This document shows positions 1-64,000 of a DNA stretch of 64,000 nucleotides, piece after piece. Positions within the stretch are counted from its first letter, which is position 1; each line of letters begins with the position of its first letter. Location of the stretch: assembly GCA_963281255.1 (NCBI GenBank), contig OY725501.1:186001-250000 (forward strand), in the 5' to 3' direction. Source of the stretch: Aphrocallistes beatrix. Lineage: Eukaryota; Porifera; Hexactinellida; Sceptrulophora; Aphrocallistidae. The notes beneath the pieces were generated by a model. The model saw only the letters and a list, made by a program, of their open reading frames with translations. It was not told where the DNA came from and did not search any database. The position numbers and the translations under genes are program-made.

Positions 1-3000
1 GACGTTTATAATGTCGATATTGTATCTGGTAACACCAACACCTGTCGTTAGCTGTGTTCTATTTGAATTTAGTTCCGAGTGGGCATACCACTCTACATTG
101 GTGGTGGCATTAGGTCCTACACACAATACTGTTGTGATCATCTCTGTTATGAAGAGGTTTGATCCGTTTGCTAGAGAGTCTGATACAGATGTTGTATCAT
201 TAGTAATGAAGCTACCTACAAAAAATAAGTTTATATTAGAGTTTTTAATGCTTTAGCAACGTTAAGGCAAATCAATAATGCGCCTGCAGATATAATTAAT
301 TAAGGATGCGGATATTATTATGATACCTACACAAGATTGGTAAATTCATACATATACCCACATGCTTAGCAATGTTTGATGCAAAGCAGCATAGTTTGTC
401 AATAAATACATAATAATATGTTGAGATGAAATACGGTTAAGAGAACATCCTAAGCAAGCGGATTCTTACTTCTCTAACTTTGCCAACTCTTCTAACAAGA
501 AATGTGGAGAACCGAAAAATTGGGGCTCAATTGTGAAAATATAGTCGATAGCATACACGTATTATAATTATATCAAATTATCTGTTAAATTACCAATAAA
601 GTTATGAGCAGCGATGTTTATTTGGAAAGCAGGAACTTCCACTCCATCCCAGTTGTAGAGATAGAACGTATACAGTCCTGTATACTGTTGTAAGAGATAT
701 GGATGTGTTACTGAGGAACCTGCTCGATAAGTTCCATCTGGAAGTTGCCATCTTCCTTCTATGTTACTGGAAAACATAAAGTTTTGTAGGAATCCTTGAT
801 GTGAGAATTGGATAATGGTTGGATAGACTTGTGTATAAGTCTGACTAACTGATGGATTGTAGGTAACTGTAAGTCTAGGTTCTAGAAATAAACATACAGT
901 ACAAATCTAAATTCAAAGGTTTCGAGGCTTGCAAAATTGATAGCAATAACATACCTCGAACTATTAACGATATAATTAATATATCAGTGTCAAAGACTTC
1001 ACAAACGAAGTTTAAGGATGAACTGGGCAAACTTGATACTAGAATGGGGTTATTAATGGTCACTACACTTCCTACTCTCCATCTATAATTCATGAGGTCT
1101 ACACTGTTATTCATAGGGACACATAGTAGCACGATGTCTGTTCGATCGATTCCTACTGCGTAGTTGTAAGTAAGTCCTTCTTCAGCAACTAAATTATTAA
1201 TTAATAAATAATAAATCTGAATATTGAGGTGTTAAATTTTATGGCATTGAAGAGAATACCTGTAGTTACTGAAAGGTCAAACACTCCAACTGTATAAACT
1301 GACATTGTTCCATCCTGTTTCTGAATTCTACACTGATAGAATCCTTGTTGAGAATTGGTGACAGAGATGAAAGTAATTCCAGGTTGAGATTCAAAATTAG
1401 TGGGATTTACTGTATTATTCATCGATAGGTCGTTGTTCTGAGAATAAATCCAATTGGTGGAGCTAGAGCTAGGGTTGATAACATCTCCACAAATTGTTGT
1501 GACATTCCGATACAATATTGTGTTGACTTTCAGTTCTTTAAATCCCAAATTCCCATTGATTAGTTCTCCAAATAGCTCTCCTAAATCTAAAAGTATATAA
1601 CTAAATATACATATATTTCCGAAAAACTATTAAAGTTCGGACAATAACGTTCACCATCAGTGTTGCTGAGGAAAGATAGGGGTTTTCACCCAATCAATAC
1701 AAATTTTGAATTTAAGTTAAATGATGTATTCAGAGAGTCCCGGGTTAGGACAATCAACATATTAAAATAAGAAGCGTATCTTAAAGAATACATTAAAACC
1801 TCATACAACAAACACTCTAGTAGTATCTGCAAAGTTGGTAAATATTATCCTATAAATACTGAATCATGATTTTAAATGTTCAAAATCCACAAATTATCAT
1901 TATTATTTGCACATTATAATCAGTATTTAAGGTTTGTAACTAGAATAGAGGAATACAAACCTGGGTTGAATTGTGCATTGCTATTCCTCTTGCATATGTA
2001 ACTATCTGTCAGACTGCTACAATTATAATTACTCCATTCATTCATTCCTGTAACTTTACTCCTTGCACAGTCATCAGCATTTGCAATGTTATTAGGAGCT
2101 CCGCTAGTCCACATATCATAGTTGAACATCTCTCCATCAATCCAATAATAAACTTCATTATTCATATTTGTATTGATTAATCCAATCCAGCAGTCATCAG
2201 CTCTATAAGGTGTCCTCAAGAACAGCAATGTATTCTCATCTTCAGATGTGATACTAGCTAGATTACCTCCCCACATCACACAGTTTGATTGAGCATCATA
2301 CCAGTTTATAGTTGGGTAGACTAATAGGAACGTTCGATAGCAGAAATCATCATTCGTGAACTGACACTCTCTGGTATTGACTAAAATTGTAGATACATTT
2401 GATTGTATAAAAGTTTCATCAATAATTCTTATGGAATAATATATCAACATACCTGGCCTTTGGCATATGAAGCAGGAAAGAGTCTCAAGTCGGTTGTATC
2501 CTTCCCATCCACTTGTTCTATTTCCATTCCTAGCTCTCAATGAGTAGTGCTCTGTAATCTGATCATTGATTGGAGTCTGTCCTGGATAATTTCTATATGT
2601 ACTCACACTACCATCTGCCCAGATACTCGTCTCATTACCACGAGTTCTCTTCTCCAGACCAATCCAACACTCAACATCATCACTAACTACTAAGTCATAC
2701 AGTAACTGATCTACTTCTGCTGAGTCTATGGTTGCAAAGTTTCCTCCTGTGTTTATGCAGAAGAACAGCTGTGCAGTGCCAGCAAATAGACCAGCTCTGT
2801 GCGTTGTATAGTAACTGAATATAGAACCGTTCATTGTGATTTCACCCTTCATTTCTAAACGAATTTAGAATAGTTATTTTTAAGACCATAGCCTTTATGA
2901 TTTCGTGATTAGTGTCAACAATTATTCTATTATATTATTCTTGAGGTCCGAATAAATGAGGAGGTTGAACATGATAAATAAATGATTTTCATATTACAAC

Positions 3001-5736
3001 ATCTCAGATTAGCTAGGATTAGAATAGGATGTTCGATATAATTTGGATAAAAATAACTGATACAAAACATCAGTCAAAAGGTGTATTGGAAAAAAATTTC
3101 ATTGTCAATATACGAAATTTAACAAACGAGGGGGTTGAAATATGCGCGGGTGTGTTTACTTGGAGCTTAGTATATTACTAACTAATGATCTAATATAAGA
3201 TCATTGAAGATTTTCAGATATTTTTGTATGATTTCAAGGTTTGAATTTAATTTGTGTTAGTTAGCTTACCTGGATTTCGAGGAATGTCCATGTGTCTTTC
3301 ACAAATATAACATATTGCAAGATAGTTGCAGTCTATATTTCCCCATTCATTATTTCCATCAATTTTAAACTGAGTACAGTCAGCAGTAGAATCATTATTA
3401 GGAATACCTCCAACCCAGTTAGTATAGTTAAATACCTCTCCATCAATCCACTGGAATACTCTATTATTATTCACATCAGTCAATCCAATCCAGCAGTTAA
3501 TTGCTGAATAAGGAGTTCTGAGGAATAAGAAATCATTTTCCAGTTGAGAAGTAATGCTAGCTAAGTCACCTCCCCAACTCATACAGTTTGATTGACAATC
3601 ATTCCAGTTGAGTGCAGTGTTTGTTTCAAATGTTCTGTAACAAGATCCATTGTAGGTAAGGTCACATCCTCTTTGGTTTGCTATAAAAATTAATAAAGAA
3701 GTACAACTGATCTCATTTGAATTAAGATTGTTATATTTATATCGATATCGATTTAACTAGATTATACGCATGTTAAGTACAAATCGAATTATCAATAGTT
3801 CAACTATTAATTCAAAATATGTGAAAAAAAGGTGTTTGACAGAAGAAGTACTACTAGTATTTAGATTTACTCATATCATATTAAATTTAGAAAATCGCTA
3901 TATTTTCAAATTAATCGTAAAGGTTTTCATTTATTTGTCACAAACCTAACTTCTCGCAATAAAAGCAAGATAGAGTTTCTGCCATGTTTAGAGCATTCCA
4001 TCCTCCATCACTACTTCCATTCATAGATCTCAGAGAATAGTACTTATCTTTTGATGAGATGGTAGGAGTCTGTCCTGGATAGTTTCTATATAAACTGTCA
4101 CTACCATCTACCCAGATAATACTCTCATTTCCACGAGTTGATATTTCCAGACCAATCCAACACTGAGTATCATTACCAGCTGCTAGACTGTACAGTGTCT
4201 CATCCTCTGCTGCTGATTCTATGCTAGCAAGACTTCCTCCCCAACCTATGCACTCCTGTAGAGCTGTGTTCCAGGTCACTCCAGGCCAAGTTGCATAAAA
4301 ATATCCATACACTGAAATGTGTAAAGTTTCATATTGTACTCCTGAGAATGATTGACTGATAAATTGTAGTATACTTAAAATTAAATTAATATATATACTC
4401 TGATACTCCTTCTAATGATAATCAAGAACATAATCAATTATTTATCTAAATTATTGCATATTTAATCGGTTATCCTTAGAAAAAAACCCCACTAGTCAGG
4501 AATTGTAAGCTGTCAAAAGCTGAAAATTTGCAGACTGGCATTAGACATTAGTAGAAACAAATCTTTAGAATTTTTCCGCTAGTTTAGATAATTTTTCATA
4601 TATCGAAAATTACTATTCGCATGCGAATAGTGGGTTTTAATACCTCGGATTTTTAAAATTTTTATTTTGTTTAGTATCAAGTCATTTGAGAATAATTTAA
4701 AATTTCAACTTACCTAGATTTAAGACAGTAGTTTGAATCCTTTTGCAGATGTAGCAATTGAGTAGTATGGAAGTACTGCAATCAGTGTTAAACCAATTAC
4801 TAGTTCCTTCGTAATTCCATAGTATACAGCTGGTAGTAGATGAAGTTGATTCTCCTGGGGCCCATTCTGTATAACTAAAAGTATTCCCATCATTCCAGGT
4901 TGTGGTTCCATTAACAGTTGTGTACTTTCCAATCCAGCAATTAAATGCTACTATTGGTGTTCTCTGAAAAAGCAACGAATTCTCTGTTTCAGAAGTAACA
5001 CTAGCCAGGTTACCTCCCCACTCTTCACAGCTTGATTGAGCATCATCCCAGTTGATTCCAGCATCTCTCTGATAGGTTCGATAACAGAAGCCATCATTCG
5101 TGAAATCACATCCTCTAGAGTTAGCTATATGGATGAACAAGCAGTTAATAGGAATACAATAGCAGATCAAGAATTTATTAAAATAAGTACGTGTAGACTG
5201 TATACCTAATTTTCTACACAAATAGCAATTTGTGTTCTCATCGGAGTTTGCGTCTTCCCATCCTTCCCCCAAAGAGTATCCGTTATTGGGTCTAAACTTC
5301 ATATAACGCCTAGTGAGTGCACCGGAAGTAAACTTCCTGTACAAACTGTCACTACCATCTTCCCAAGTGTATCCTTCTGGCCCCTTTACAAGATTAGGGT
5401 TTGGATGTTTATTCAAACCAATCCAACATTGAAAATGAGTGGCATTCGTTAAACTGAATAATTGAGCATCTTCTTCCAGTGAGTTGAGACTTGCTATGTT
5501 TCCTCCCCAACTTATACAGTTATCAACAGCAGTTGGTTGATCGAATGCATTGGTTGAAACAGAAAGGATCGCGAATATCGTACCATCGTATACTAATTCT
5601 CGATCTGGGTTTAAATTAGAAATGTTTTATTAAAATGATTAAATATTAGTGTTATGTTCGAATTTTATTATTGTCACAACTTACCAATCCCGTGAACAAA
5701 ATGTAGTAATAAAAAAAAGATTATATTGATGAACAT
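1..5736 (-). CDS. Locus A: CTLD6-Ig receptor (RPTP-family ectodomain), 3' part outside window
   Basis: Exons in coding order: signal peptide 5685-5736, CTLD-A 5206-5604, CTLD-B 4714-5124, CTLD-C 3946-4341, CTLD-D 3270-3680, CTLD-E 2453-2854, CTLD-F 1961-2380, Ig1 1260-1586, Ig2 955-1188, Ig3 594-881, Ig4 1-215 (cut by the window edge). All junctions are GT-AG and phase 1. The signal peptide (MFINIIFFLLLHFVHGIG) is in frame with CTLD-A. The CTLDs show the family core WGG-x-LASI and CWIGL; types B, D and F have an extra N-terminal Cys pair, as in long-form CTLDs. This is the full six-CTLD set, so the protein is predicted to be a cell-surface receptor with the lectin-like modules outermost. The usual CTLD-A acceptor is mutated, and the next in-frame AG removes two codons. 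Introns above 300 bp (2855-3269, 4342-4713) hold nothing I recognise except a palindrome. The tail type cannot be known because Ig5 onward is missing. Confidence 0.88.
4612..4631. repeat. 20-bp perfect palindrome in locus A intron
   Basis: ACTATTCGCATGCGAATAGT is a perfect inverted repeat with no spacer, lying in the intron between CTLD-C and CTLD-B of locus A. No element boundaries are evident around it and no function can be assigned. Confidence 0.6.
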
Positions 5737-6164: not shown

Positions 6165-9100
6165 CTACAGATGGACTGAGCAGTACTCGTTGAGCAAAGA
6201 ATAGCAAGTTGTATAGCAGGCCTAAAATAAAATAAATACAAGTAGTATACTTCATTAATCCATCATTGTCACATAACGTTTATTATGAATTTAAAATTGG
6301 TATATTTTAGTAAATTAATCAATATTAATGCCCTTCTAAATTATTTTTTTTCAAGCCTTTGCAATGTATCGGATTTGGATACTTACTGTAGTGTTATGCA
6401 GCCATGCAGTACAAGTGTATAAAGAGCCTTTGTTCACATATAAAACTGAGGTGATGGAATTTGAAGGGAAAAACTAGATTTTGCACACTACATGATAAAG
6501 GGATCCTACACGCAAAATTTAGTAGAAATAAGATCGTAAATTTCGCAAGGTCGAGCACATGAAAACACACTTAAAAGTTGATAACATAACTTGCATAAAA
6601 TGCCAATATAGTACATACTTACCAGAGTAGGGACAACATGCATTCTAGTTCGTCGAAGTTTCTTCACGTTATTGAAGATGTCGATGACTTTTGTAGCGTG
6701 CATTTCGTCAATAGCATTATAGACTGTCATTAGAACGCCTGTCTTAGATATTCCATTTTCACAATGGATGATGATAGGTTTGGATGGTATGTCTTGTTGT
6801 TGCTTGATGATTCTATTCAGCAAACTCACTGCATAATTAAAATCGACAAGTGTAGAATCTTCGTTCCAAATCGGAGATATGCACTGAATAAATGAACGCC
6901 CTTTATTCTCCAGAGTATCATGCAAAATCAGCTCATTTTTGATGAATGCACTGGTTTCAGTAGAATTTGATAATTTGCAAACGAAATTTTCACATTCGAA
7001 CTCTTCATCTGAGTTTTTAGGCCAATAACACACTCGATGTGATACACCTCCAATAATTTGAGCTTTTTCCTTTCTCGTGGTTAGCATTACAACCATGCTG
7101 GCTTCAGTCTGGTATATCATATGGAGAAAGTCCCTCAACGTAGCCTTAGAAGGATGCATAGTTGCAATAAACTGGTGCTGATTTATCCAACTAGCATTGA
7201 TGTAGTTGCAGTCATTGCTCAGAGAAATCAGGATAACTCTGTTTTCATCATATGGGAAGATATTTCTATGTGTGTTTTTAGTTTTGTTTCCAGGTTTTAT
7301 TGCCTCTACGAATGATATTTCGGACAATTCTCTACATTCCACGTTTAATTGCTGGAACTCCTTATGAAAGATAGATTCTTTTGCAAGTCCAGATTTAACA
7401 TAATTTGCATATGTTTTCAGAAACTCTTTCGCTGGAATAATTGTTGTCGCGATTAGATTTTTATCAATAATAGGCTGCATCTTCGTGTAATAGGGGGAAA
7501 GATCAGTTTCTGCTGGATATTCTGCCTCATTAAGACCTGAATATACGTAATCCAGACCTAAGTTAATCCCATCGCCCAAATTTGTTGGTTCGTCTCCTTC
7601 AAGTGGTACTAAAGCACTTTCATCTATTATCGTGTAGTTCATATCATTTTCTGTAGCATCAGTAGATTCTGTCGTGATATATGTACTACTTGCTAAAACT
7701 TCGTATTTAGGAGCCGATCCCCCTTGAACAGTTTGCAATTCATTATTATTTCCATTTTGTACCCTAGATTGTTCAACACAAAGATGGACCTTTGGTATCA
7801 AATGAGTTTCATCGATGTTTGTATTAGAAAAAGTGTTGCTTAATCCAGATACAGGCTGATAAAGAGGATTTGTAATATTTGAAGTTTCCAAACCAGTATT
7901 TACATAATTTGAAGTTGGGGTGTATGAATTTACTGCCAAAGGTGTTTTAGATGGAGATCCAGTATTATTTTTAGAAGAACTTTTGTGTCGCTTCATGTAA
8001 AACAGTACAAGGATGACCAACACGACTATAATAGTTATAAGGGCTACGATTACAATAATTATTGGGACTACTATTATTATAGGATTGAAACTTTCATTTA
8101 GTGTTTCGCTGGTTCCGGGAGACATTGTCTGTGTGGTAGTTGTTGGAGGAACGGGGAGAACATTTATCAAGATCAGAGCAGTAGTGTAGTCATTACCTGT
8201 CAATGTAGTTCTGAAAAGCGAATATGTACCTGCATCGTCTGAATTTAGTATATCAATTATATATGTGGCACTATATATCGTTCTAACTGTAGAATTAGAA
8301 TATACAATCCTCCATATGCATTCTTGAAGACTACATGTGAACATGACATTAGAAGTTGGTAGTTGAATATTGATTGGTACTGGAGAAGGGAAAGAAGGAT
8401 TGTTTGCATCACTGAAAATTGTTTGTGAACCATCATAAGTAAGAGTGACTGTTGCAGTATCTAGAAAATTTATGGGAATATCAACATTACAAAAATACCT
8501 TAAAAACTAAGCTTCGGAATAAATACCTCTAACAGAAATATCAGTTTGTCCTAACACCATTGCAGGACTATTACGATAGAAACATGTTAAAGTGTGTTGA
8601 CCTGCTCCTACATCTGAGAATAGTAAACTCATTGGAAAGGGGTTTGTAAATTCAGGATTGAATATTCGATTATCTCCTTCCATCACATTCTCTGTTGTCC
8701 AATGTATGAAACTGTCTGGAATTGATGCATTAGTATAGTACAGAACTGCAGAAGATCCACTTGTGTACGAAACAGTCTCATCAAAATTGAAGACTTGAAC
8801 TAACAAAATTTTGTACTTAAAGCAAATTGAGCTTCAGAAGAAATCATTCATAAACACTTACCTATTGAATCTCTGCGAGCAACAAAGATTGTATAAGTTT
8901 CACTCTCATCTACTTCACAAGTGAGATAAATCGGTGTAGAAACATCGCTAATGTCGATATTATAACTGGTTACTCCTGTAGTACTTGTTGTTAGTAGAGT
9001 TCTATTTGAATTTAGTTCAGAGTGAGTATACCACTCTACAATGGTGAAATCAGTAGCTCCTACACATAATACTGTTGTGACCATCTCTGTTACGAAGAGA

Positions 9101-12100
9101 CTTGATCCATTTGCTAGAGAATCTGGTATAGATGTTGCATCATTTGCAATGATGCTACCTACAAAAATGTAAATAGTGTAAAGACCATTTAATTAGATTT
9201 TCGGCTTTTAACTTCAAAAGACGTGTAGGATGGACAAATTGAGACCATTTTGTGCGAATATGTAGTACGTACTAGTATATGATAAGTATTCCAAATTATA
9301 TGATAAATTACCGATAAAGTTATGAGCGGTGATGTTTATTTGGAAAGCAGGAACTTCAATTCCATCCCAGTTGTAGAGATAGAACGTATACAGTCCTGTA
9401 TACTGTTGTAAGAGATATGGATGTGTTACTGAGGAACCTGCTCGATAGGTTCCATCTGGAAGTTTCCATCTTCCTTCTATGTTACTGGAAAGGGTAAAGT
9501 TTTGTATGAATCTTTGATTTGAGAATTGGATAATGGTTGGATAGACTTGTGAATAAGTCTGAATATCTGATGGATTGAAAGTGATTGTAAGCCTAGGTTC
9601 TAGAAATAAACATACACTATAAATCATAAATAAAAAAAGTTCGTGTTTGTTAAATTGAAATAACTTACCTTGAACATTTAACCAAATAGATAATATGTCA
9701 GTAGCAAAGACTTCACATACGTAATTCAAACTCGAACTTAGCACATTTGAAACTAGGATCGGATTATTCGTGGTCACTGTACTACCTATTCTCCAGCTGT
9801 AATTAATGAGGTCTATACTGTTATTCATAGGGACACATAGTAGCAAAATGTCTGTTCGATCGATTCCTATTGTGTAGTTATATGTACTTCCTTCTTCAGC
9901 AACTAAAATAATTATAAATTAATACATCTGAATATCGAAATTTATCACATTTTATTGCATTGAGGACAATACCTGTAGTTATTGAACCGTCAAACACTCC
10001 CACTGTATAGACCGACGAAGTTCCATTCTGTTTCTGAATTCTACACTGATAGAATCCTTGTTGTGAATTAAGGATTGATATATACTTAATCACTGGTTGA
10101 GAATTAAAATTATTTGAAATGAGTGTAATATTCATAGATAAGTCGTTTTCATTCGAATAAATCAAATTGGTCATGCTAGAGCTAGGAGTGATAACATCCC
10201 CACAAATTAGAGTGATATTCCGATAAAATATTGTGTTGACTTTCAGTTCTTTGAATCCCAAATTTCCATTGATCAATTCTCCAAATAACTCTCCCAAATC
10301 TAAAATATTTTTGTTATTAAATTACATTTTGTATAGATAAATCTTATATATTAAAACGCTAGGATTTGTTTGTTTGTTTGTCCAAATTGAAGTCATAGAG
10401 ATACGAAAATTGGCATGTAGGTGTCAAATGATGAATCTACGATTAAGTTTGAAGATCTAAGCGAAATTTTCACACCTCTGCCAAAAAAATGGAAAACAAT
10501 TTTTCACACCTTTTCTATATACTACTCTCACAATAGAAATCATTGTATGAAATCATTGTAGGCTGTCATTGTTATTAATACTTCAAAGCAAAAACTTATA
10601 TATATGTCTCAATTATACAATAGTGTATAGCAATAAAAAAGGTTATGTGTATATTTTCACACCTTTATACGTATACATATTTTAACACCATTTGACGAAT
10701 TTTGAAAATTATGCTAGAGACTAGCTTCCAATGGTTGACATAGGGTTTTTAGGGGTATAGATATCGAATATCATATTTTCAGATGGATATGATAAATTAT
10801 TTGTTAACTTTTGTTTACAATATTTATATAAATTAGACAAATTCCCAAAATAGGCTAGATTGAGTAACTCCAGGCGCCCGCAGGGCGACTCTGCAGACAC
10901 AAAGTGTCCGCAAGGCGCGAAGCGCGCCTGTATTCATTATATAGAAAATGATCCATTTCCTACTCCACATTATACTGGAAAAATATGATGACTCATCCTA
11001 CTATCGCGTATTAGACAAGGTTGGAACCGAAAACTGATATGTTCAGATTATATTTCCTTTCGCTTTTCTGCCTATTTTTCAGTGCATCAAAGGGAGAAAA
11101 ATTTCGGGTCGGATCGGATTCGGGTTTAGGTTCGAGTTTGTGCTCAGGTTGAATATATTTTGGTATATTTAGGCACTTTAGTCATGTCTAGAATATAAAT
11201 TTGCTGTTTCGGGTCGGGCTCTGAACTCGAGATACGGTATTAAAAATACAAACCTGGGCTGAATTGCGCATTGCTACTTCTCTTGCATATGTAATTATCC
11301 GTCAGACTGCTACAATTGAAATTGTCCCATTGATTCATTCCTGTAACTTTATTCCTTGCACAGTTATCAGTGTTTGCAATGTTATTAGGAGCTCCACTAG
11401 TCCACATATCATAATTGAATATCTCTCCATCAATCCAATAATAAGTTCCATTATTCATATTTGTATTGATTAATCCGATCCAGCAGTCATCAGCAATATA
11501 AGGTGTCCTCAAGAACAGCAATGTATTCTCATCTTCAGATGTGATACTAGCTAGATTACCTCCCCACATCACACAGCTTACTTGTGCATCAAACCAGTTG
11601 ACAACTGAATTGGCTGATTGAAATGTTCGATAACAGGAACTATTATTTGTGAACTGGCATTCTCTGATGTTTACTAAAATTTTACAGCAATATAAATACT
11701 GGTTATAAATATACTTCATTAGTAGTCAATTAATGTATTAGTAGTATAACGATGGGATATTAGATTATGATCTGAATTTTTCGGATTTAGTGTCAGGTTT
11801 TATAGCTTTATACAAAGATTGAAACATTGGAAACATCTTGTGGTACAAAAAAATCCCTCAAAATTGAGTTCAATGAAAACCTAGTGACTAAAATGCATAA
11901 AATGCAAGGTAATTTAGGATCAAATGGGTTAGAAAAATCCTGCTTCAAGCAACCCTAAATTTTAAGGATTGAATAATCAGGTTAATTAAGCATACTTTCT
12001 ACTATAAAATACCTAGCCTCTCGCAATAAAAGCAAGATAGAGTTTCTGCCATGTTTAGAGCATTCCATCCTCCACCACTACTTCCATTCATAGATCTCAG

Positions 12101-13506: not shown

Positions 13507-13579
13507 CTAAATTAGAAATGTTTTATTAAAATGATTTCAAATTATACTAAGTTCGAATTTAACTAAGGTCCTAACATAC

Positions 13580-13632
13580 CTATCCCATTAACAAAATGAA
13601 GCAATGAAAAAAAGGAATGTATTGATGGACAT
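13580..13632 (-). pseudogene. Frameshifted signal-peptide exon of locus B
   Basis: Homologous to the 52-bp signal-peptide exons of loci A and C but 53 bp long. The extra base lies around the poly-T stretch. The C-terminal part still reads SLLHFVNGIG in the frame that joins CTLD-A, but the ATG at 13630-13632 is in another frame, which hits a stop. The donor splice site (GTATGT) survives. No in-frame ATG is seen just upstream. Confidence 0.75.
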
Positions 13633-21054: not shown

Positions 21055-21099
<45 letters not shown>

Positions 21100-41435: not shown

Positions 41436-41564
41436 TTGACATGATACACTCCATCTCATCAATGCATACATATTAAGTTCTACAATAAAAGTGTATACGA
41501 CTCAGATAAATATATTTTTCTTACAAAATAGTCATAACTCATGAAAAAATTGGGTACTGAAGCA

Positions 41565-50375: not shown

Positions 50376-53300
50376 ATGATGATTGTTTACTTTTATTTGA
50401 CATTGCTTGTCAATTTGTACACATTATCAATGTACCAAACAGATGCAGTAGGTAAGTCAATAGATTTAGGTTGTTGTTATGTAGGTACTATAGTTGGTGA
50501 CAGTTGGGCTTCTGTTATAATTTGATCTCACTAGTGCCTGCAAAGCGCCTAAGCCGAGCTCAAAATATTCGCTGGCATATACGACCAATATTTAAGAAAT
50601 TATACATTTTAAATAACTAAACGCTTAAATCATTAGTACTGTCATTTCATGGGTGCTGGGTGGAAAGTGAAAAAATCGTCATTGTGTATAAATAGATGAA
50701 ACTTGATAATATCTTCCTATTAGATCCAGATCGTAAACTAACATACTTTGGTACAATATTCGCAATCTTTACGAGCTTAAATAATGATTTCAGTCAAGAG
50801 AATGGTGTAAATACCTGTTTAAGTTGGGGAGGAACCCTCGCGACTATCACCTCAATTAGAGAAGATAATAGTGTATTCAGCTTAACGAATGCTACTCACT
50901 ACCAATGTTGGATTGGTCTGGAAGATACAAGGAATAAAACAGTAAATCTGATTCGGGATACGCAGGGATATAGTTGGTTGGATGGTAGTGACAGTCTATA
51001 CAGAAAGTATTCTCCTGGTACGAGTTCATTCTCTGAACCTCTGATCAAATTCAGACCCAACAACGAACGTACCTTGGAAGAAGGATGGGCTAATGCAACT
51101 GGAAATTCAAATTGCTTTTTGTGTGGGAAATTAGGTAAGGACGCAGTTTCATTAAATATGTTGACAGTGAACCTATAATTTAGCCTACATACATACCTAT
51201 ACAGCTGGTAGAAGGATAATTGTGTGACATTTGTAGATACTATTTTTCACACGCTATGAGTGGATAATCCTTCAACCTGATCCAGAATTAATACTGATGG
51301 AAATATGTATCTATTGATCGTAAGACGTTCCATTCGAATGAATAGAGTAATTACTATACAACTTGCCTGTAATCTATTAGTAGGGCATTGGGATCGTGCG
51401 ATCAATTGATTGCGAGCCTATTATGATGATCGGATGAGGATCGGCGATATTTTTAATGATCGCGATCTTTTTTTAACCCGATCATTTTCTGATCATTTTT
51501 GGAACTTTGTCTTCTCTCCTCATCACCATTAACTTATTCCATTTGTCTATGCTGTTACCAATTTGAGTCTTATTCCAGCACTAAAAGACTATCACGTATT
51601 CTGATAGTTAAGTTTCATTAGCATTTCGAATTTTAGTTACGATTAAAATTATGTGTCAAGTACCAAAAACGATCGGAAAAAATGATCGAAATTGGGATCG
51701 CCGATCATAATATCAACTGAGATCGGGATCTTCTTCTTCACGATCGGCTAACGCCCTATCTATTGGTATGGATTTATCCACTTAACCGAACTTATTAACT
51801 GAGTTGTTTAACTTCCGACAATTTTCCGGTCGATTTTTAGTAAATTCGAGCTTCAACAATTCTTTAATTTAGATAACCCAAGAGGATGTAGTTTTACAAA
51901 AGATAATCACTGTTATCGGTCATATCAGATGGATACTACAATTAACTGGTATGATGCTCAATCAAGGTGTGAAGATTGGGGAGGTAACCTCACTAGTATT
52001 ACTTCTGAAGAAGAGAATCAATTGATTTTTCAGAGAACACCGATTAACGCACTTAATTGCTGGATTGGAATGTATTCAGATATTAATGGAATCCTTACCT
52101 GGAATGATGGAAGAAATTTCAGTTATACGAAATGGAAAAACACACCTACAGATTCGCCTCCACACTGTGTTGAATGGAATAAAGGAGGATCAGATGTTTG
52201 GGTTAATAGTAACTGCGAGACTCGAACTCTTAATTGCTTCATCTGTAAAAAGTTCCGAAAATCATTTTCCCCTCCAGGTAATTCCGATTACATTCCTCAA
52301 CTTAATGGGATTTGTACCATTAAAGTGTAATAGCGACTTATTACACATAAATTAAGATACTGCAGCAGGACTGATGGAATTCAAAATCTACACATGTACA
52401 TTGAATATAATACTAAAATATAAGTGAGACAAACAAATAAATGCATCTAGAGAAATTCAATCTATGACTCAATACTACTAAATAAGACTGTTGGGTGTAG
52501 TTCTAGGGAATTATATTAAAATACAAATTTTGTATAACTCATTTGATTTTTTTCCATTAAAAGAATTCCATCCGTATAGCATTACTTAATTAGGGACATA
52601 GGTTTTTAAATAAGTACCCAATTTTAATAATATCTCTCCAATATTAGAGCAAGAAATCACTCACAATGGCTCTATATACACCTACTATACTACAACCGAT
52701 AAAATTGGAGCATTTAGATATACTGCACAATATTTCTACTGCATTGCCAGAGGAGGAAATCTTGCAACCATAGACTCAGCAGAGTTAGACCAATTACTAT
52801 ATGATCTAGCAGTTAGTGACGATATCAACTGTTGGATTGGTCTGGAGAAAGTAAATCGTGGTAGTGAGGATGTTATCTGGGCAGACGGTAGTGTGAGTAC
52901 ATATAGAAACTATCAGGAACAAACTCCAAACAATAGTCTTGAGTTCTACACATTGAGAGCAAGGGATGGAAATAGGACAAGTGGATGGGAGAACATAAAT
53001 GATGCGATTTTATATTGTATCATATGTCAAAGACCAGGTTAGTTTATTTTTAACAATTTCTTCTTCACACACTAGCACCTATGATATTAGGATAGTACCA
53101 TTATTGATGGATCACGATCACCATAGGCCCCGAACTGGGAGGCGGGGTTGAAAGATTCGAGGCCCCTTGAACCCCGGAACTGTCCATAGATTTCGAAAGG
53201 CTCGGCTTCCCTGACGATCACTATGCTTTGTTCTTACTATTAAAACTCGATTAATGTATATATATATATATATATATACAAGCGCGCATGGTTGCGCTGC

Positions 53301-56300
53301 GAGGCTAGCGGACACTATGTGGGCGCCTGGGCTCACATTGATTAATTATAGGGGGAATAATATCTCTAAATGTCTGTCTTCTGTTAAAATCGAAATCACT
53401 CAAATAATCATTTGTCAAATTTTTTTTTAATGTGTAATGATGACGTCATAACAGAGTGATGAGTCATCATTTTTCGAAGAGAATTGTATTATATGTGAGA
53501 TATATTAATATACACATTCTATTAAAATTTCAGGCATCTATCACCTAAAATGACTGAATAATAGTCGAAAAACTGAAATCTCTAATTATGAAAAAGGTGA
53601 CAATGACGTCATAATTCTATGATGAGTCGACATTTTCGTATGAGCTCAGAACTTAGTGAATCCAAGCCAAAATACTCTCACATGCCAAAAATGAGCTTTC
53701 TGTGCCTGGCAGTTTCTTCAATCAATTCGTTACAGATATATATAGATATAGATATAGATATATAAACATTAATCGAGTTTTAATAATAGTAAGGATATCC
53801 ACTTTTTAGTAAACATCAAAGGATGTCAATTCACAAATGATGGTTTCTGCTATCGAACATTCCTATTATTCCATCAAACTATCAACTGGTTTGATGCTCA
53901 ATTAAGTTGCCAAATATGGGGAGGCAATCTAACTAGTATCACATCTGAAGAAGAAAATACACTTCTATACTTGAGGACACCTAATTTAGCACATAACTGC
54001 TGGATCGGATTAATCAATACAAATATGAATGATGAAGCTTATTATTGGATTGATGGAGAGATGTTCAATTATGATATGTGGACTAGTGGAGCTCCTAATA
54101 ACATTGCAAATACTGATAACTGTGCAAGGAATAGAGTTACAGGAATTAATGAATGGAACAATTACAATTGCATCAGTCTGACGAATTGTTACATATGTAA
54201 GAGGAATAGCAGTGCTCAATTCGACTCAGGTTTGTATTCAAGTTAGATTACTCAATTCAAATGTGTTTATTATCGTTTGACTTTGCAATTAATCTGTTTG
54301 AAATTTTAGATTTAGGAGAAGTGTTTGGAGAGCTAATCAATGAAAATCTGGAATTTAGGGAATTGGACATCAACACAGTATTGTATCGGAATGTTACTCT
54401 AATTTGTGGAGACGTCAAGTATTCTATCTTAAGCTCTGTCAATTGGATTTATTCTCAGAACAACGACCTATCTATGAATCGTACAGTCAGTCCTAATAAT
54501 CTCTATCTTCAACCAGGAATTGCATCTATATCCATTTCCAACTCACAACAAGGATTCTATCAGTGTAAAATTCAAAAGAATAGTGGTGCTATCTCAGTTT
54601 ACACAGTTGGAGTATTTGATCGTTCAGTAACTACAGGTACTGTGTAAATGTTTATATTTAACATTTCGCTTTCTTCCACTCTAATTAATGATATCATGTG
54701 TTATATTTAGTTGCTGAGTCAGGAAGAACTTACAACTACACTGTAGGAATTGACAGGAAGGACATTATACTATTGTGTTACCCCATAAATACTAGTGTAG
54801 ATCCCATTAGCTATATATGGAGAGTAAGTGCTAAGGATTTCTTTATGAATAACCCTATCATGTTCTCCAATTTTGCAAGAATCGATTCAACATTTGTCTG
54901 TGATTCAACTACATTAATCGTTCGAGGTATGTTGCATTCAACTGTTACCTAACTATATCTTCCATCGACTATCTTAAATATGGTATAATTCTAGCACCTA
55001 CTTTGGCAATTACTGACCAATCATCGCTTGTGCAAAATTTCCCACAAATCTATCCTCTCACAAATCAAATCTCAATCCAAGGATTAAAACAAGGTTTCAC
55101 ACTCAGCAGTAACATAGAAGGAAGATGGAAACTTCCAGATGGAACTTATCAAGCAGGTTCCTCAGTAACACATCCATATCTCTTACAACAGTATACAGGA
55201 CTGTATACGTTCTATCTCTACAACTGGGATGGAGTGGAAGTTCCTGCAACACAAATAAACATCACTACAACTGATAATATAGGTAGTATAATTTATATCT
55301 GAACTTTTTAACAAAACATTTCATCTACTCTCTGTGGCTAATTATCTAAAATTCTGCATTGATATTATTAAATAATTAGGTATTTTCATAAGCACAGGAA
55401 CAGGAATAGAACAATGGGAAAATCTTCAAAACAATTCTCGAGTTTTCATAACAGAGCAACTTACAACTATCATATGCGTTGGACCTAGAATCACATCTAG
55501 TGTTGAGTGGTTCAGAGAAGATACACTATTGAGAGTAAGTGATGGAAGCAACATACTAGATGAAGGTTCTATCCAGATCCCTGGATATTACAACTGCCGA
55601 GTGGATGAAGCTTCAACTTATTCTATCTATGTTGCAAAGAAAAGTCTAATAGGTATTTTTTAACAAAATTAAACGGAAAAAATTATTGAATTAACTTTTA
55701 TAATTCCCAATAGTTGAGATCACTGACTTTACTGAAACTGTTAACTACACACTTGGATCTCCTACACTGCTATACCACTCTAATAATCCAGTGCCAGACA
55801 GTCAGATACGCTGGGCCACTGAAATTATAGAGACGGGAGATGATAGGATATTCAATCCTGAATATCCAAATCCTGTTCCATTGAGCACAATATTCTCTGA
55901 TGTAGGAGGAGGTCAACACAGTTTTACATGCTTCTACAGAAATAGTCCTGTAACAGTTCTTGGGAGTGTTAAAGTTAACATGAAGGGTAGGAATTTAATG
56001 AAAATAATATAGTCAAAATAATTAGTTACTTATCAATGATTCATTTTAATAGATACAACTAATGTGACAATTAGTTACAATGGTTATGAAAAGACATTTA
56101 GTGACGTCAACAATCCAATGTTTCCAAATCCTCAACAGATAGAGATACTCAATGATACTACTGATATTATCTCAAGTTGCAGTTTATCTGAATGTAAATG
56201 GAGGATTCAATATAATAATTCAACGGTTGTGATAGTAAACACACCTTTTTTGGATATAATACTATTGTCTGAGGAACATGAAGGAATCTATTCGGTATAT

Positions 56301-57999
56301 AGAACAACCAATTCTGGTATAAACTATACTACAGCTGATATCTTTATCCGAGTTCTTCGAACTCAGAATACTAGTAGACAAACAAATCCTACAAGTACAA
56401 GTACAAGTACAAGCACAAGTACAAATATTAATATCACAGCAGTATTCAATCCAGTTATCATAGCCATCCCTGTTATAACAACAGTTATCTTTACATTTTT
56501 CATCATCTTTCTAATTGTCGTTTTAATAATTTGCTCGGTAAAAAAACGGAAAAATAAGTCCTTGATAGCACCAAAGAAAATGCAAAGTAATCCTAATACC
56601 AACAGACAATATACAAACATAACTTCAAGATTTACTACTTCTAAGACAAAAACAGTAGGGTCAGGCTATGCAAATCTTTCAGACCTAACTGAGCTCAAAG
56701 AATTCAGCAAAACTGATGGAAAGGAAAAAAGTAGTGATGCGAATTATATGACTATAGATGAAAGTATCTTAATCCCACTGGAGGGAGAAGAAGAGGTTAC
56801 AAAGTCTAATATTCACGGCGAAGATAAAGCAGGTCCTTATTATTCTAATCTTGGTAGATTAGATGCACAAAAGGATATTCTCAAACGAACAAGTATTCCC
56901 CAGGCTGCCATTCCAGATAAAATGCCTGAAAGTTCTGAAGAGATGGGAAAAACCGCTACTTCTCCTTACTATACGATAATGTCTCCTCTTACTGAAACTG
57001 AAACAATTGTAACACCTATTATCCCAGCGAAGGAATATTCACAAACTTATGACAAGTACGTTGAATCTGGAATCGCAGAAGGCTCTATCTTCTTCAGCGA
57101 ATTTCAGCAATTGAAATTAGAATGTGAGGATTTGTCCAGAATGCCTGTTTCAGAGGGAACAAAACCAGAAAATGCAAAAAAAAATCCATCCAAAAATGTA
57201 TATCCATATGATGAAAATAGAGTTGTACTTTTCTCTCCCAACTATAAGTGCAGCTATATCAACGCTAGTTGGCTAGATTTGCATCAGTTTGTTGCTACCA
57301 TTCACCCAACTCAAGACACGTTAAGGGACTTTCTTCAATTGATTTGCCAAACGGAAGCCAGTATGGTTGTAATGTTAACCACGAGGAAGGAAAAGGCTAA
57401 AATTCTCGGAGGTATGTCACAACGTGTTACTTATTGGCCGAGAAAGAAAGATGAAGAATTTGGATGTGAGCAATTTAGTTGTAAGCTGAATAGTACTACA
57501 GAAACAAGCGCATTCATCAAGAATGAAATCCTTGTACAAGATGCTCTAGAGAATAAAGTGCATTCATTTATTCAATGCATTTCTCCGATATGGAACGAAG
57601 ATTCTACACTTCTAGATTTAGGTAATGCAGTAAACTTGTTGAGTAGAATCATCAAGCAGAAACAAGACATACCCTCCAAACCTATCATCATCCACTGTGA
57701 AGACGGTATAGCTAAGACAGGTGTTCTAATGACAGTGCATAACGCTATTAAGGAAATGAGTGCTTCCAAAACAATCAGTGTCTTCAACAATGTAAAGAAA
57801 CTCCGCAGACAAAGAATGAATATGGTTCCTACACTAGTAAGTTGCTAAATAATATTCATTCTTGAATAAAATTGTCATATAAATCGGAGTACATATCAAT
57901 TGTGTTCTTATACAAATCACTTTTATTTCCTTTTTATTTTAGGGGTGCTACAGAACTTGCTACTCTTTACTCAACGAATACTGCTCAGTTCATTTGTGA
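50376..57999 (+). CDS. Locus H: complete CTLD4-Ig6 receptor with a single inactive-type PTP domain
   Basis: Exons: signal peptide 50376-50451, CTLD-A 50724-51134, CTLD-B 51873-52277, CTLD-E 52648-53037, CTLD-F 53810-54229, Ig1 54310-54636, Ig2 54711-54926, Ig3 54995-55282, Ig4 55380-55652, Ig5 55714-55986, Ig6-TM-PTP 56053-57836, last exon 57943-57999 (NEYCSVHL-stop). They total 4920 coding bases, 1639 residues, one frame. CTLD-C and CTLD-D are absent. H is the one complete, unfused gene of the pseudo-PTP class here, so this class is real and not only a by-product of the B and D rearrangements. A possible AATAAA signal lies at 58016-58021. The Ig3 core matches loci E and F better than neighbour I, a sign of gene conversion. 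Introns 51135-51872 and 53038-53809 carry mobile elements; 52278-52647 holds nothing I recognise. Confidence 0.92.
51381..51758. mobile_element. GATCG-rich inverted-repeat element (MITE), locus H copy
   Basis: Ends TAGGGCATTGGGATCGTG and, on the other strand, TAGGGCGTTAGCCGATCGTG, flanked by TCTATTAG (51373-51380) and TCTATTGG (51759-51766), an 8-bp duplication with one mismatch. The interior is dense in GATCG/CGATC. Present at the same place in locus I, so it predates the H/I duplication. Confidence 0.7.
53234..53792. mobile_element. Inverted-repeat element with CRE-like sites, locus H
   Basis: Both ends carry ATTAAAACTCGATTAAT (inverted), next to TA-rich tracts. Inside are a GC-rich hairpin block, two TGACGTCA palindromes and a TGATGAGTCATCA block, in the same order as the copy at 20561-21124. 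Locus I lacks it at the matching intron position. No open frame that looks like a transposase. Confidence 0.7.
56053..57836 (+). CDS. Locus H exon: Ig6, transmembrane helix, tyrosine motifs, D2-like pseudophosphatase
   Basis: A 1784-bp exon of 594 codons. Ig-like domain, then a Thr/Ser repeat stalk encoded by a microsatellite (56391-56424), a hydrophobic helix at about 56445-56540 followed by KKRKNK, a tyrosine-bearing linker and one PTP domain. Linker motifs: SGYANL (ITIM-like), NYMTIDESILIPL and YTIM (about 56970-56981, YxxM type). The PTP signature is HCEDGIAKTG (Cys 57696-57698, Lys for Arg at 57714-57716), with SPIWNED in place of the WPD loop. Probably catalytically inactive; a phosphotyrosine-binding or scaffold role is possible but not shown. 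Confidence 0.9.
56391..56424 (+). repeat. Coding microsatellite in the locus H stalk
   Basis: Repeated ACAAGT units encode alternating Thr and Ser just outside the membrane. The 6-bp unit keeps frame at any copy number. The products would be O-glycosylation-prone stalk residues. Confidence 0.75.
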
Positions 58000-58723: not shown

Positions 58724-61700
58724 ATGATTGTTTACATTTACTTGACATTATTTGTCAAATTGTATGCACTATTAATGTACCAAACAGATGCAGTAGGTAA
58801 GTCAATAGGTTTAGGTTGTAGTTATGTAGGTAATAGTTGGTCACCTTTTGGCTTTTTTCTGTCTTCATTTGAGCTCACTAGATGCTTGCAAATCGCCTAT
58901 ACCGAACGCAAAATTTTCGCTGGTCACACAGCGCAAGCAATTTGTTTTTTTCGATGCATATACGACCAACATTAAGAAATTAAACATTATAAATAACTAA
59001 ACGTGTTTCATTGGTGCTGGGTGGAAAGTGAAAAAATAGTCATTGTGTATAAATAGATGAAACTTGATAATATCTTTCTATTAGATCCAGATGGTGAACT
59101 AACATACAATGGTACAATATTCGCAATATTTACGAGTTCAAACGATGATTTCAGTCGAGAGGATGGTGTAAGTGCCTGCTTAACTTGGGGAGGAACCCTC
59201 GCGACTATCACCTCAATTGGAGAAGATAATCGTGTATTCAGCTTAACGAATGCTACTCACTACCAATGTTGGATTGGTCTGGAAGATACAGGGAATAAAA
59301 CAGTAAATCTGACTCGGGATACGCAGGGATATAGTTGGTTGGATGGTAGTGACAGTCTATACAGAAAATATTCTCCTGGTACGAATTCATTCTCTGAACC
59401 TCTGATCAAATTCAGACCCAACAACGAACGTACCTTGGAAGAAGGATGGGCCAATGCAACTGGAAATTCAAATTGCTTTTTGTGTGTGAAATTAGGTAAG
59501 GACGCAGTTTCATTAAATATGTGAACAGTGAACCTATTATTTAGCTTACATACATACCTATACAGCTGGTAGAAGGATAATCGTGTGACATTTGTATATA
59601 CTATTTTTCACACGCTATGAGTGGATAATTCTTTAACCTGATCCAGAATTAATACTGATGGAAATATGTATCTATTGATCGTAAGACGTTCCATTCGAAT
59701 GAATAGAGTAATTACTATACAACTTGCCTGTAATCTATTAGTATGGCATTAGGGTCGTGCGATCAATTGATTGCGAGCCTATTATGATGATCGGATGAGG
59801 ATCGGCGATATTTTTAATGATCGCGATCTTTTTTTAACCCGATCATTTTCTGATCATTTATGGAACTTTGTCTTCTCTCCTCATCACCATTAACTTATTC
59901 CATTTGTCTATGCTGTTACCAATTTGAGTCTTATTCCAGCACTAAAAGACTATCACGTATTCTGATAGTTAAGTTTCATTAGCATTTCGAATTTTAGTTA
60001 CGATTAAAATTGTATGTCAAGTACCAAAAACGATCGGATAATGATCGAAATTGGGATCGCCGATCATAATATCAGCTAAGATCGGGATCTTCTTCTTCAC
60101 GATCGGCTAATGCCCTATCTATTGGTATGGATTTATCCACTTAACCGAACTTATTAACTGAGTTGTTTAACTTCCGACTTTTAGTAAATTTAAGCTTATC
60201 AATTCTTTAATTTAGATAACCCAAGAGGATGTAGTTTTACAAAAGATAATTACTGTTATCGGTCATATCAGATGGATACTGCAATTAACTGGTCTACTGC
60301 TCAATCAAGGTGTGAAGATTGGGGAGGTAACCTCACCAGTATTACTTCTGAAGAAGAGAATCAATTGATTTTTCAGAGAACACCGATTAACGCACTTAAT
60401 TGCTGGATTGGAATGTATTCAGATATTAATGGAATCTTTACCTGGAATGATGGAAGAAATTTCAGTTATACGAAATGGCGTAACGCACCTCCAGATTCGT
60501 CTCCACACTGTGTTGAATGGAATGACGGAGGATCGGATGTTTGGGTTCCTAATAACTGCGAGACTCGAATACTCAATTGCTTCATCTGTAAAAAGTTCCG
60601 AAAATCACTTTTCCCTCCAGGTAATTCCGATTACATTCCTCAACTTAATGGGATTTGTACCATTAAAGTGTAATAGCGATTTATTACACACAAATTAAGA
60701 TACTGCAGCAGGACTGATGGAATTCAAAATCTACACACGTATATTTAATATAATACTAAAATATAAGTGAGACCAACAAATAAATGCATCTAGAGAAATT
60801 CAAACTATGACTCAATGCTACTGGATAAGACTGTTGGGTGTAGAGTTACCGCGAATTATATTATATTACAAATCTTGTATAACTCATGAAATTTTTTCTT
60901 TAAAGAATTGCATCCGTATAGCTTTACTCAATTGTGGACACAAGTTTTTTAATAGGTACCTAATTTGAATTATTTCTTTCCAATATTAGAACGGGAAATC
61001 ACTCACAATGGTTCTATATTCAGCTACCATACAACAACAAATAAAATTGGAGCATTCAGATATACTGCACAATATTACTTCTGCATTGCCACAGGAGGAA
61101 ATCTTGCAACCATAGAATCAGCAGAAGTAGACCAAATACTGTATGATCTGGCAGTTAGTGACGATATCAACTGTTGGATTGGTCTGGAGAAAGTAAATCG
61201 TGGTAATGAGGATGTTATCTGGGCAGACGGTAGTGTGAGTACATATAGAAACTATCAGGAACAAACTCCAAACAATAGTCTTAAGTTCTACACATTGAGA
61301 GCAAGGGATGGAAATAAGACAAGTGGATGGGAGAACATAAATGATGCGATTTTATATTGTATCATATGTCAAAGACCAGGTTAGTTTATTTTTAACAATT
61401 TCTTCTTCACACACTAGCACCTATGATATTAGGATAGTGCCATTATTGTTGGATTATGATCACCATAGGCCCCGAACTCAGGGGGGGTGAGGAACTCGAG
61501 CCCCCTGAAACCCCGGAAGTGTCTTTAGATTTCGAAAGTTTGCCGCCCTTTACGATCACTATGCATTATTGATAATCAAATGAAGATCGTCGATATTTTC
61601 TTGCAAATGAGTGAATGGGGAATCGTGATACTTTTAGGTCAGAAATTATCCGATCACATTTTTGAACATTTTTTAAGATTCCAATGTTTTTCTCATGATA

Positions 61701-64000
61701 ATTATTCTGTTATTTAGTTGATAAATATAATATCGTACTGCAGCGCTAACATGAAAATCGACTAGTTTTATATTTAAATATCACAGAAATTGGTCTAAAA
61801 ATCACGAAACGATTAGAAAATTGTTCGAGATCTGGATTGTATATCATCATTTCAACTAGGATTAGAATTGATTGTGATCTTTTTTCACGATCGACTAATG
61901 CCATTCTTGATTCAGATTCAATATTTAAAATACTTGCACATACGATTTTCTTCAAAGACACAACAATGAATATGTGTGTCAATCATAGTATATCCACTTT
62001 TTAGTAAACATCAAAGGATGTCAATTCACAAATGATGGTTTCTGCTATCGAACATTCCTATTATTCCATCAAACTATCAACTGGTTTGATGCTCAATTAA
62101 GTTGCCAAATATGGGGAGGCAATCTAACTAGTATCACATCTGAAGAAGAAAATACACTTCTATACTTGAGGACACCTAATTTAGCACATAACTGCTGGAT
62201 CGGATTAATCAATACAAATATGAATGATGAAGCTTATTATTGGATTGATGGAGAGATGTTCAATTATGATATGTGGACTAGTGGAGCTCCTAATAACATT
62301 GCAAATACTGATAACTGTGCAAGGAATAGAGTTACAGGAATTAATGAATGGAACAATTACAATTGCAGCAGTCTGACGAATTGTTACATATGTAAGAGGA
62401 ATAGCAGCGCTCAATTCGACCCAGGTTTGTATTCAAGTTAGATTACTCAATTCAAATGTGTTTATTATCGTTTGACTTTGCAATTAATCTGTTTGAAATT
62501 TTAGATTTAGGAGAAGTGTTTGGAGAGCTAATCAATGAAAATCTGGGATTTAGGGAATTGGACATCAACACAGTATTGTATCGGAATGTTACTCTAATTT
62601 GTGGAGACGTCAATAATTCTATCTTTAGCTCTGCCAATTGGATTTATTCTCAGAATAACGACCTATCTATGAATCGTACAGTCAGTCCTAATAATCTCTA
62701 TCTTCAACCAGGAATTGCATCTATATCCATTTCCAACTCACAACAAGGATTCTATCAGTGTAGAATTCAAAAGAATAGTGGAGCTACCTCAGTTTACACA
62801 GTTGGAGTATTTGATCGTTCAGTAACTACAGGTACTGTGTAAATGTTTATATTTAACATTTTGCTTTCTATCACTCTAATTAATGATATAATATGTTATA
62901 TTTAGTTGCTGAGTCAGGAAGAACCTACAACTACACTGTAGGAATTGATAGGAAGGACATTATACTATTGTGTTACCCCATGAATACTAGTGTAGATCCC
63001 ATTAGCTATATATGGAGAGTAAGTCATAATGATTTCTTTATGAATAACCCTATCATGTTCTCCAATTTTGCAAGAATCGATTCAACATTTGTCTGTGATT
63101 TAACTACACTAATCGTTCGAGGTATGTTGCATTCAACTGTTACCTAACTATATCTTCCATCGACTATCTTAAATATGGTATAATTCTAGCACCTACTTTG
63201 GCAATCACTGACCAATCATCGCGTGTACAAAATTTCTCACAAATCTATCCTCTCACAAATCAAATCTCAGTCCAAGGATTAAAACAAGATTTTACACTCA
63301 GCAGTAACATAGAAGGAAGATGGAAACTTCCAGATGGAACTTATCAAACAGGATCCACCATAACATATCCATATCTCCTGCAGCAATATACAGGACTGTA
63401 TACGTTCTATCTCTACAACTGGGATGGAATAGAAGTACCTGCTATACAAACTAACATCACTACTACTGATAACATAGGTATCATTTCTATTTCCAATATG
63501 TTTGATATTTTTACAAGGTATTCTATATTTGGCAAAAACTCTAAAAATCTGTTAATATCATTGAATAATTAGGTATCTTCATGAACACAGTATCAGGAAT
63601 GGAACGATGGGAAATTCTTCAAAATAATACTCGAGTTTTCTTTACAGAACAACTGATAACTATCATATGTGTTGGACCTAGAATCACATCTAGTGTTGAG
63701 TGGTTCAGAGGAGCTACACTATTGAGAGTAAGTGATGGAAGCAACATACTAGATGAAGGTTCTATTCAGACTCCTGGATATTACAACTGCCGAGTGGATG
63801 AAGTTTCAACTTATTCTATCTATGTTGCGAATAAAAGTCTATTAGGTAATTTTTAAACAAAGTTTAGTACAAAAATTGAATATTAATTATAATTCCCATT
63901 AGTCGAAATCACTGATTTTACTGAAACTGTTAACTACACACTTGGATCTCCTACACTGCTCTACCACTCTAATAATTCATTGCCAGACAGTAAGATACGC
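58724..64000 (+). CDS. Locus I: CTLD4-Ig receptor, near-copy of locus H, 3' part outside window
   Basis: Exons: signal peptide 58724-58796 (MIVYIYLTLFVKLYALLMYQ), CTLD-A 59085-59495, CTLD-B 60216-60620, CTLD-E 60990-61379, CTLD-F 62005-62424, Ig1 62505-62831, Ig2 62906-63121, Ig3 63190-63477, Ig4 63573-63845, Ig5 63903-64000 (cut by the window edge). All open and phase 1. Exons and introns are nearly identical to locus H at an offset of about 8.2-8.35 kb, so this is a recent tandem duplicate. The Ig3 core differs from H and resembles locus G. By its kinship to H it should end in a single pseudo-PTP domain, but that exon is outside the window. Introns 59496-60215 and 61380-62004 carry mobile-element copies; 60621-60989 holds nothing I recognise. 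Confidence 0.88.
59742..60117. mobile_element. GATCG-rich MITE, locus I copy
   Basis: Same element and insertion site as 51381-51758, with TCTATTAG and TCTATTGG flanks. Inherited through the H/I duplication. Confidence 0.7.
61560..61906. mobile_element. Degenerate GATCG-rich element in the CTLD-E/F intron of locus I
   Basis: Contains GAAGATCGTCGATATTTTC and, at the other end, CACGATCGACTAATGCC, recalling the termini of the MITE at 51381-51758, but with many substitutions. In locus H this part of the intron is replaced by the element at 53234-53792. Boundaries approximate. Confidence 0.4.

Follow-up and report, generated by a model that had tools for sequence, protein, structure and literature searches.

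What might a glass sponge do with a tandem array of lectin-bearing receptor tyrosine phosphatases? The question is raised by a stretch of 64,000 nucleotides (the window) from Aphrocallistes beatrix, positions 186001-250000 of contig OY725501.1 (C15) in a genome assembly of 100.5 Mb and 28 contigs. It contains seven receptor genes (G1-G7) with C-type lectin-like domains (CTLDs) and immunoglobulin (Ig)-like modules outside the membrane and protein tyrosine phosphatase (PTP) domains inside; five are complete (G2-G6) and two are cut by the window ends (G1 and G7). We give a probability of about 0.6 to the reading that the window covers the middle part of an array whose lectin/Ig receptor tyrosine phosphatases are paired as active and dead forms, for which recognition is the likeliest use. 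All counts rest on one assembly, and the gene models were predicted from genomic DNA.

Our own hidden Markov models (HMMs) for twelve ectodomain modules and two PTP domains, D1 and D2, were mapped over C15:50-290 kb. The array reaches beyond both window ends, spanning C15:65.9-276.6 kb (~210 kb), and holds 23 PTP loci, 12 with both domains (D1+D2) and 11 with D2 alone (D2-only); stubs and one D2 remnant of 25 residues come on top of these. Within the window the D2-only tail is found in four of the seven genes (G1, G2, G3 and G6) and D1+D2 in three. The original prediction counted nine loci here, and the extra two are probably lectin cassettes with CTLD types A-B-C inside G2 and G3. Both inner units were considered as loci of their own and rejected. 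No signal exon was found for the inner A of G2, the signal-exon-like stretch upstream of the G3 cassette has a poor donor site, and both units read through in frame.

Two types of receptor tail

Intact catalytic motifs (WPD and HCSAGxGR) are present in 11 of the 12 D1 domains of the array. The exception, 266p (C15:266115-266891), has lost both WPD and the catalytic motif, which reads HCSNGIGPTG, and represents a third tail state within a D1+D2 gene. In the D2-only domains the catalytic arginine is replaced by lysine in all 11 cases and WPD is never found; the D2 of D1+D2 genes likewise lacks WPD. Among solved chains, D1 is nearest to PTPRA, PTPRS and LAR (E 6e-94 to PTPRA) and the D2-only domain to PTPRA and PTPRE. 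By their tails these are receptor protein tyrosine phosphatases (RPTPs), yet, judged by motif, close to half of the loci no longer have the enzyme. The suggestion that the family signals by dephosphorylation would accordingly be excluded for four of the seven window genes, because their sole PTP domain has neither the catalytic arginine nor WPD.

The D2-only tails are 175-205 residues long with 9-14 tyrosines (five genes with D2 in frame), and the corresponding segment of D1+D2 genes has 98-116 residues and 5-7 tyrosines (four genes). Tyrosine motifs of the YMTIDE-like and YTxM kinds are present in all five D2-only tails. A motif resembling the immunoreceptor tyrosine-based inhibitory motif (ITIM), [SIVLT]xYxx[ILV], occurs in 4/6 D2-only and 1/4 D1+D2 tails scanned and is not conserved as such. 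The ratio of non-synonymous to synonymous substitution rates (dN/dS) of the D2-only domain is 0.13-0.24 (10 pairs of 5 genes), a sign of purifying selection, with the dead D2 being preserved rather than decaying. In the D2 tree all 11 D2-only rows form one clade (support 93/88), as do 14 D2-only rows when copies from elsewhere in the genome are included (81/73). An assembly gap or missed exon as the reason for the absent D1 was rejected, with the transmembrane segment, tail and D2 lying in one open frame (e.g. in G6).

Ectodomains shared across tail types

The two tails are carried by ectodomains that are nearly the same. G6 and G7 have 82-99% identity per ectodomain module vs 42% in the last exon, with a synonymous divergence (dS) of 0.091 in the ectodomain vs 2.24 in the last exon; for G3 and G4 the corresponding values are 84-96% vs 45% and 0.112 vs 1.53. 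The switch point lies inside the last exon, near the stalk in G6/G7 and past the transmembrane segment in G1/G4, and this difference indicates more than one exchange. What defines paired receptors, near-identical ectodomains on two tail types within one cluster, is found here.

Tree comparisons point the same way. In the approximately unbiased (AU) test, a single D2-only clade was rejected both on ectodomains (p-AU 7e-7, 10 genes) and on I5+I6, the last two Ig-like modules (p-AU 1e-42, 18 genes). On D2, a G6+G7 clade was rejected at 3e-66, for a pair picked after being seen, and the CTLD class as one clade was rejected at p-AU 6e-4. The tail label changes six times on the I5+I6 tree, where shuffled labels give 6.2 changes, vs once on the D2 tree. 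Both tail types occur in all four multi-gene subclades of the 18-gene I5+I6 tree, the subclades having been named after the tree was seen.

Receptor architecture and module identity

All seven window genes can be rebuilt as open frames with a signal peptide, 4-9 CTLDs, 5-6 Ig-like modules, a transmembrane segment and PTP. Each ectodomain module is one exon with phase 1 at both ends (symmetric 1-1); the exception is the last Ig-like module, which is encoded together with the transmembrane segment and tail in the last exon. Ten of ten rebuilt genes, including the seven touching the window, run from signal peptide to stop without an internal stop, so the open frames are not due to chance, although in one of the ten (g172, outside the window) the reading frame stops short of D2. 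The six CTLD types of G4 all score above the gathering threshold of Pfam Lectin_C, and the last exons match Y_phosphatase (E 3e-42 to 9e-114 in the four scanned in full; 2e-107 in G4). A hydrophobic transmembrane segment lies between ectodomain and tail, giving the single membrane pass and intracellular PTP, homologous to RPTP D1/D2, that characterise tandem-domain receptor PTPs. The one architecture that had been proposed for all loci holds for lectin domain, phosphatase domain and membrane segment, but not for the module counts. Different module subsets and rearrangements had also been described, and both the HMM map and the splice models bear this out, with modules shuffled among genes.

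The six Ig-like domains claimed for these receptors fared less well: at sequence level the I1 type is the only one with a secure Ig assignment, and this in part. I1 itself matches Ig_3 below the cut-off (E 5e-4), and one of the I1-like modules in the Ig class of the array passes the PF00047 cut-off. One I4 matches Ig_2 below the cut-off (E 0.0054); I2 and the I4 and I5 of G4 match no Ig profile, nor does any of 17 I5 members, and I3 is PKD-like at best (9/17 members, best E 0.0019). I2, I3 and I5 thus have no Ig-profile match over the cut-off. In the last exon of the Ig class (positions 908-2671 of the piece read) a segment shows weak similarity to fn3 (E 0.016, below the cut-off), which hints at an ancestor among RPTPs with Ig and fibronectin type III (FN3) domains.

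Comparison with known receptor systems

In vertebrate paired receptors, ITIM tails recruit a phosphatase, or partner adaptors carry immunoreceptor tyrosine-based activation motifs (ITAMs). The sponge array differs from KIR, FcR-like and Ly49 receptors in that the phosphatase is built into the receptor and its counterpart is a pseudophosphatase. Since there is no conserved ITIM/ITAM tail, the array receptors would work like the KIR/FcR family without being members of it. The likeness lies in clustered arrays, near-identical ectodomains on opposite tails and domain shuffling, as set out in the available text of the sources (PMC2413239; for KIR pairs PMC12310515). Among invertebrates, fester and the fester co-receptor of Botryllus are likewise linked pairs with Ig-type ectodomains and Y-x-x-I/L/V tail motifs. 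They differ in having an Ig and sushi ectodomain rather than CTLDs and, in the part of the source available, no described PTP domain; allorecognition has been tested experimentally for them (PMC12065747) and would be a candidate role for the sponge array.

The tandem-domain RPTPs PTPRA/E, LAR/PTPRS and PTPRK/M resemble the array in their transmembrane segment, active D1 and degenerate D2, and the sponge genes differ from them in the CTLD-Ig ectodomain and the array arrangement. Tandem CTLDs are shared with the mannose-receptor family (DEC-205, MRC2, PLA2R), whose members differ in being endocytic and are not known to have a PTP or to form an array. IA-2/PTPRN is a receptor-type PTP without catalysis. 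PTPRU is another, according to the available portion of its description (PMC7320164). Both differ from the sponge genes in being single genes, not known to have an active twin matched by ectodomain. In the accessible text of a review of human RPTPs the ectodomains comprise MAM, Ig, FN3 and carbonic-anhydrase-like domains, and a C-type lectin appears only as a partner protein (PMC10815196). No description of a CTLD-Ig-RPTP architecture was found in the open-licence papers searched; the words 'lectin' and 'phosphatase' are absent from the main text of the two glass-sponge genome papers, as far as it was available.

Interpretation and alternative explanations

To judge from its sequence, the anatomy of the array is that of paired receptors: the same outside, phosphatase versus pseudophosphatase inside, in one recombining cluster. 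The putative active tail has a D1 with WPD and CX5R and a degenerate D2; the putative dead tail has no D1 and a longer, tyrosine-richer juxtamembrane region before D2. The ectodomains would bind ligands carried by other cells or by microbes, and matched receptors might compete for, or co-cluster on, one ligand. The active form would remove phosphotyrosine, and the dead form could become phosphorylated, bind SH2 proteins and/or substrates, and shield or relay the signal, such that the ratio of active to dead receptors would set the response. With active motifs in one and dead motifs in the other, the two tails may signal in opposite directions. Recognition is the best reading of the array, either self/non-self or microbe recognition would fit the anatomy, and the use that we rank first is immune or tissue-fusion recognition, ahead of adhesion, with neutral array dynamics third. 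Of the original prediction of a clustered recognition family, the multicopy array of module-shuffled lectin/Ig receptors on RPTP tails is borne out, less the dephosphorylation in four of the seven window genes.

Several observations weigh against paired recognition receptors. Module-wide dN/dS is 0.23-0.65, with no module above 1. The CTLD-B loop that corresponds to the sugar-binding loop reaches 1.17-1.39, not significantly above 1 (p 0.20-0.45). This loop is higher than the rest of its domain in two of three gene sets (Fisher 0.025 and 0.037; 0.38 in the third; no correction applied), and no excess is seen in the equivalent part of the other five CTLD types. Single gene pairs reach 1.0-1.6 (CTLD B) and 1.3 (I3) with no family trend; positive selection, tested per module and per loop, was not shown. 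EPN and QPD, the motifs of C-type lectins that bind sugars with Ca2+, are missing from all 54 CTLD modules of 10 gene models, which makes classical sugar binding unlikely. In the I5+I6 tree 65m stands alone on a long branch. Genes start head to head at four places, with 0.9-1.2 kb between the two starts; the start of 131m was chosen from two candidate ATGs. The three intact pairs each join a D1+D2 gene with a D2-only gene, and in the remaining pair the partner of the D1+D2 gene is a stub. Because three of these pairs are Ig-class copies of a single unit, promoter pairing amounts to about two independent cases and the all-mixed composition is a weak statistic. Ordinary unequal crossing-over, if the array is young, can also account for the homogenisation, and some D2-only copies appear broken (148p with a stop; g172, outside the window, whose frame ends before D2; and the fragment 74m). 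These copies, the 113+ stub and the many array blocks of 80-98% DNA identity would suit neutral tandem-array dynamics, in which unequal crossing-over leaves D2-only genes behind as by-products, the sharing of ectodomains stems from recent duplication and gene conversion, and no paired function exists. We consider this improbable: the dead tail has one old origin and keeps open frames in several genes and a low dN/dS in D2, both tails recur in every multi-gene ectodomain subclade, and the tyrosine motifs are conserved in all the D2-only tails compared.

An adhesion or tissue-patterning RPTP family in the style of LAR or PTPmu, expanded for sponge architecture, with D2-only receptors as dimerisation partners or ligand decoys and no immune role, is unlikely, if less so than neutral dynamics. 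It would agree with PTPRA, PTPRS and LAR as the nearest solved D1 relatives, with the module dN/dS below 1 and with the weak fn3-like stretch, such as LAR-type RPTPs would have; large rearranged arrays that copy cassettes and exchange tails repeatedly are more typical of recognition families, and the ectodomain loops differ between copies. Greater weight is due to pattern recognition of bacteria, as food or symbionts, rather than of self, which is a real possibility that we hold to be short of even odds. The host is a filter feeder, the tandem CTLDs are nearest to DEC-205/mannose-receptor family chains (the best PDB matches of CTLD F), and at least 150 CTLD exons were scored genome-wide (150/241 candidates scored). 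The missing EPN/QPD motifs count against this too, however, and simple uptake needs no pairing of active and dead forms. Microbe and self recognition are compatible rather than exclusive.

More tentatively, the paired-receptor reading may be extended to the proposal that, in a sponge that is largely syncytial, acceptance of contacting tissue or microbes depends on the balance between active receptors and their selection-preserved pseudophosphatase twins with matched lectin/Ig ectodomains, as an independent invention of activating/inhibitory receptors with the phosphatase built in. How glass sponges tell self from foreign is a question because they are largely syncytial, and the array would make it directly testable. 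To our knowledge, the paired receptors of vertebrate families have tails of the ITIM/ITAM type. For Botryllus and Hydractinia, the available part of the source reports motifs of this kind (PMC12065747). If the array works as paired receptors, a sponge lineage reached the principle through another type of signalling machinery; the array would also be a natural experiment on the pseudophosphatase half of RPTPs, with D2 kept by selection in many genes and D1 lost.

Genes of the window

The features of the window are collected in Table 1. In G2 the second A-B-C occupies the D-E position. G3 has nine CTLDs if its inner cassette is spliced in, and the A-B part of that cassette has 91.6% DNA identity to the 5' end of G3.

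Table 1. Receptor genes and their domains in the window (A-F, CTLD types; I1-I6, Ig-like modules; SP, signal peptide; TM, transmembrane segment).
Feature	Position	Strand	Basis
G1, 5' part: SP, A-B-C-D-E-F, I1-I3, most of I4	1..5736	-	HMM map, splice model, 0 internal stops
G1, remainder: rest of I4, I5, I6, TM, D2-only tail	runs on to C15:183.6 kb	-	
G2: SP, A-B-C-A-B-C-F, I1-I6, TM, D2-only tail; 7 CTLDs	6506..16286	-	HMM map, splice model
G2 D2-only pseudophosphatase domain; HCENGISKTG, WNE replaces WPD	6593..7426	-	motif reading
G3: SP, A-B-C-D-E-F, I1-I3, A-B-C cassette, I4-I6, TM, D2-only tail	17083..28177	-	HMM map, splice model
G3 D2-only pseudophosphatase domain	17089..17922	-	motif reading
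A-B-C lectin cassette within G3 Ig array	20037..22416	-	HMM map
Divergent intergenic region, D2-only G3 / D1+D2 G4; 1039 bp ATG to ATG	28178..29216	.	
G4: SP, A-B-C-D-E-F, I1-I6, TM, D1+D2; fullest standard gene, 2131 aa	29217..39842	+	HMM map, splice model
G4 D1; WPDHD and HCSAGVGRSG, catalytic motifs intact	38193..39011	+	motif reading
G4 D2; HCSDGAGKSG, no WPD	39033..39836	+	motif reading
G5: SP, A-B-C-F, I1-I3, I5, I6, TM, D1+D2	41541..49196	+	HMM map, splice model
G5 D1, catalytic motifs intact	47547..48365	+	motif reading
G5 D2; R to K, no WPD	48387..49193	+	motif reading
G6: SP, A-B-E-F, I1-I6, TM, D2-only tail; ectodomain twin of G7	50376..57848	+	HMM map, splice model
G6 D2-only pseudophosphatase domain	57033..57842	+	motif reading
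G7, 5' part: SP, A-B-E-F, I1-I4, start of I5	58724..64000	+	HMM map, splice model
G7, remainder: I5, I6, TM, D1+D2	runs on to C15:252.7 kb	+	

Surroundings of the array and other observations

West of ~150 kb on C15 the array consists mostly of Ig-like arrays without CTLDs; its first receptor (C15:65.9-72.6 kb) carries two CTLDs, and three small receptors at C15:262-277 kb carry one each. The youngest duplication seen is a pair of 4.1 kb blocks, C15:115020-119107 and 130928-135015, which are 98.3% identical. Singleton relatives lie outside the array on contigs C10, C11 and C3 and at C15:776 kb. A second PTP cluster at C2:51.7-86.8 kb comprises nine more two-domain PTP places whose stalks are Ig/low-complexity; the 10 kb read there (two of the nine places) showed no CTLD module. 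Further clusters of CTLD exons lie at C6:0.76-1.37 Mb, C4:1.2-1.3 and 2.15-2.21 Mb, C15:3.87-3.98 Mb and C9:3.88-3.93 Mb, among others; some copies on C4 score identically in two neighbouring blocks.

An Rfam scan of the window gave no matches over gathering. A 31-bp tandem repeat lies in a G4 intron (window 31251-31500 and 31791-31907) with an inverted copy of the repeat unit nearby, and a 22-23-bp tandem repeat between G4 and G5 (window 40916-40987). Contig C28 (17,996 bp) is mitochondrial, and its COX1 can be aligned to COX1 of the bovine type only if TGA is read as Trp, AGR as Ser and ATA as Ile. All recognised genes are on one strand in the order nad3-cox1-cox2-rnl-nad4L-atp6-cox3, with no atp8; rnl was named by Rfam, and nad3, cox2, nad4L, atp6 and cox3 were read from translations. 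Glass-sponge mitochondria, in the available part of a paper on Aphrocallistes vastus, have AGR=Ser, AUA=Ile, a lost atp8, nad3 beside cox1 and a cox2-rnl border (PMC2267718), and the match of the C28 code and gene order to these features points to a hexactinellid host.

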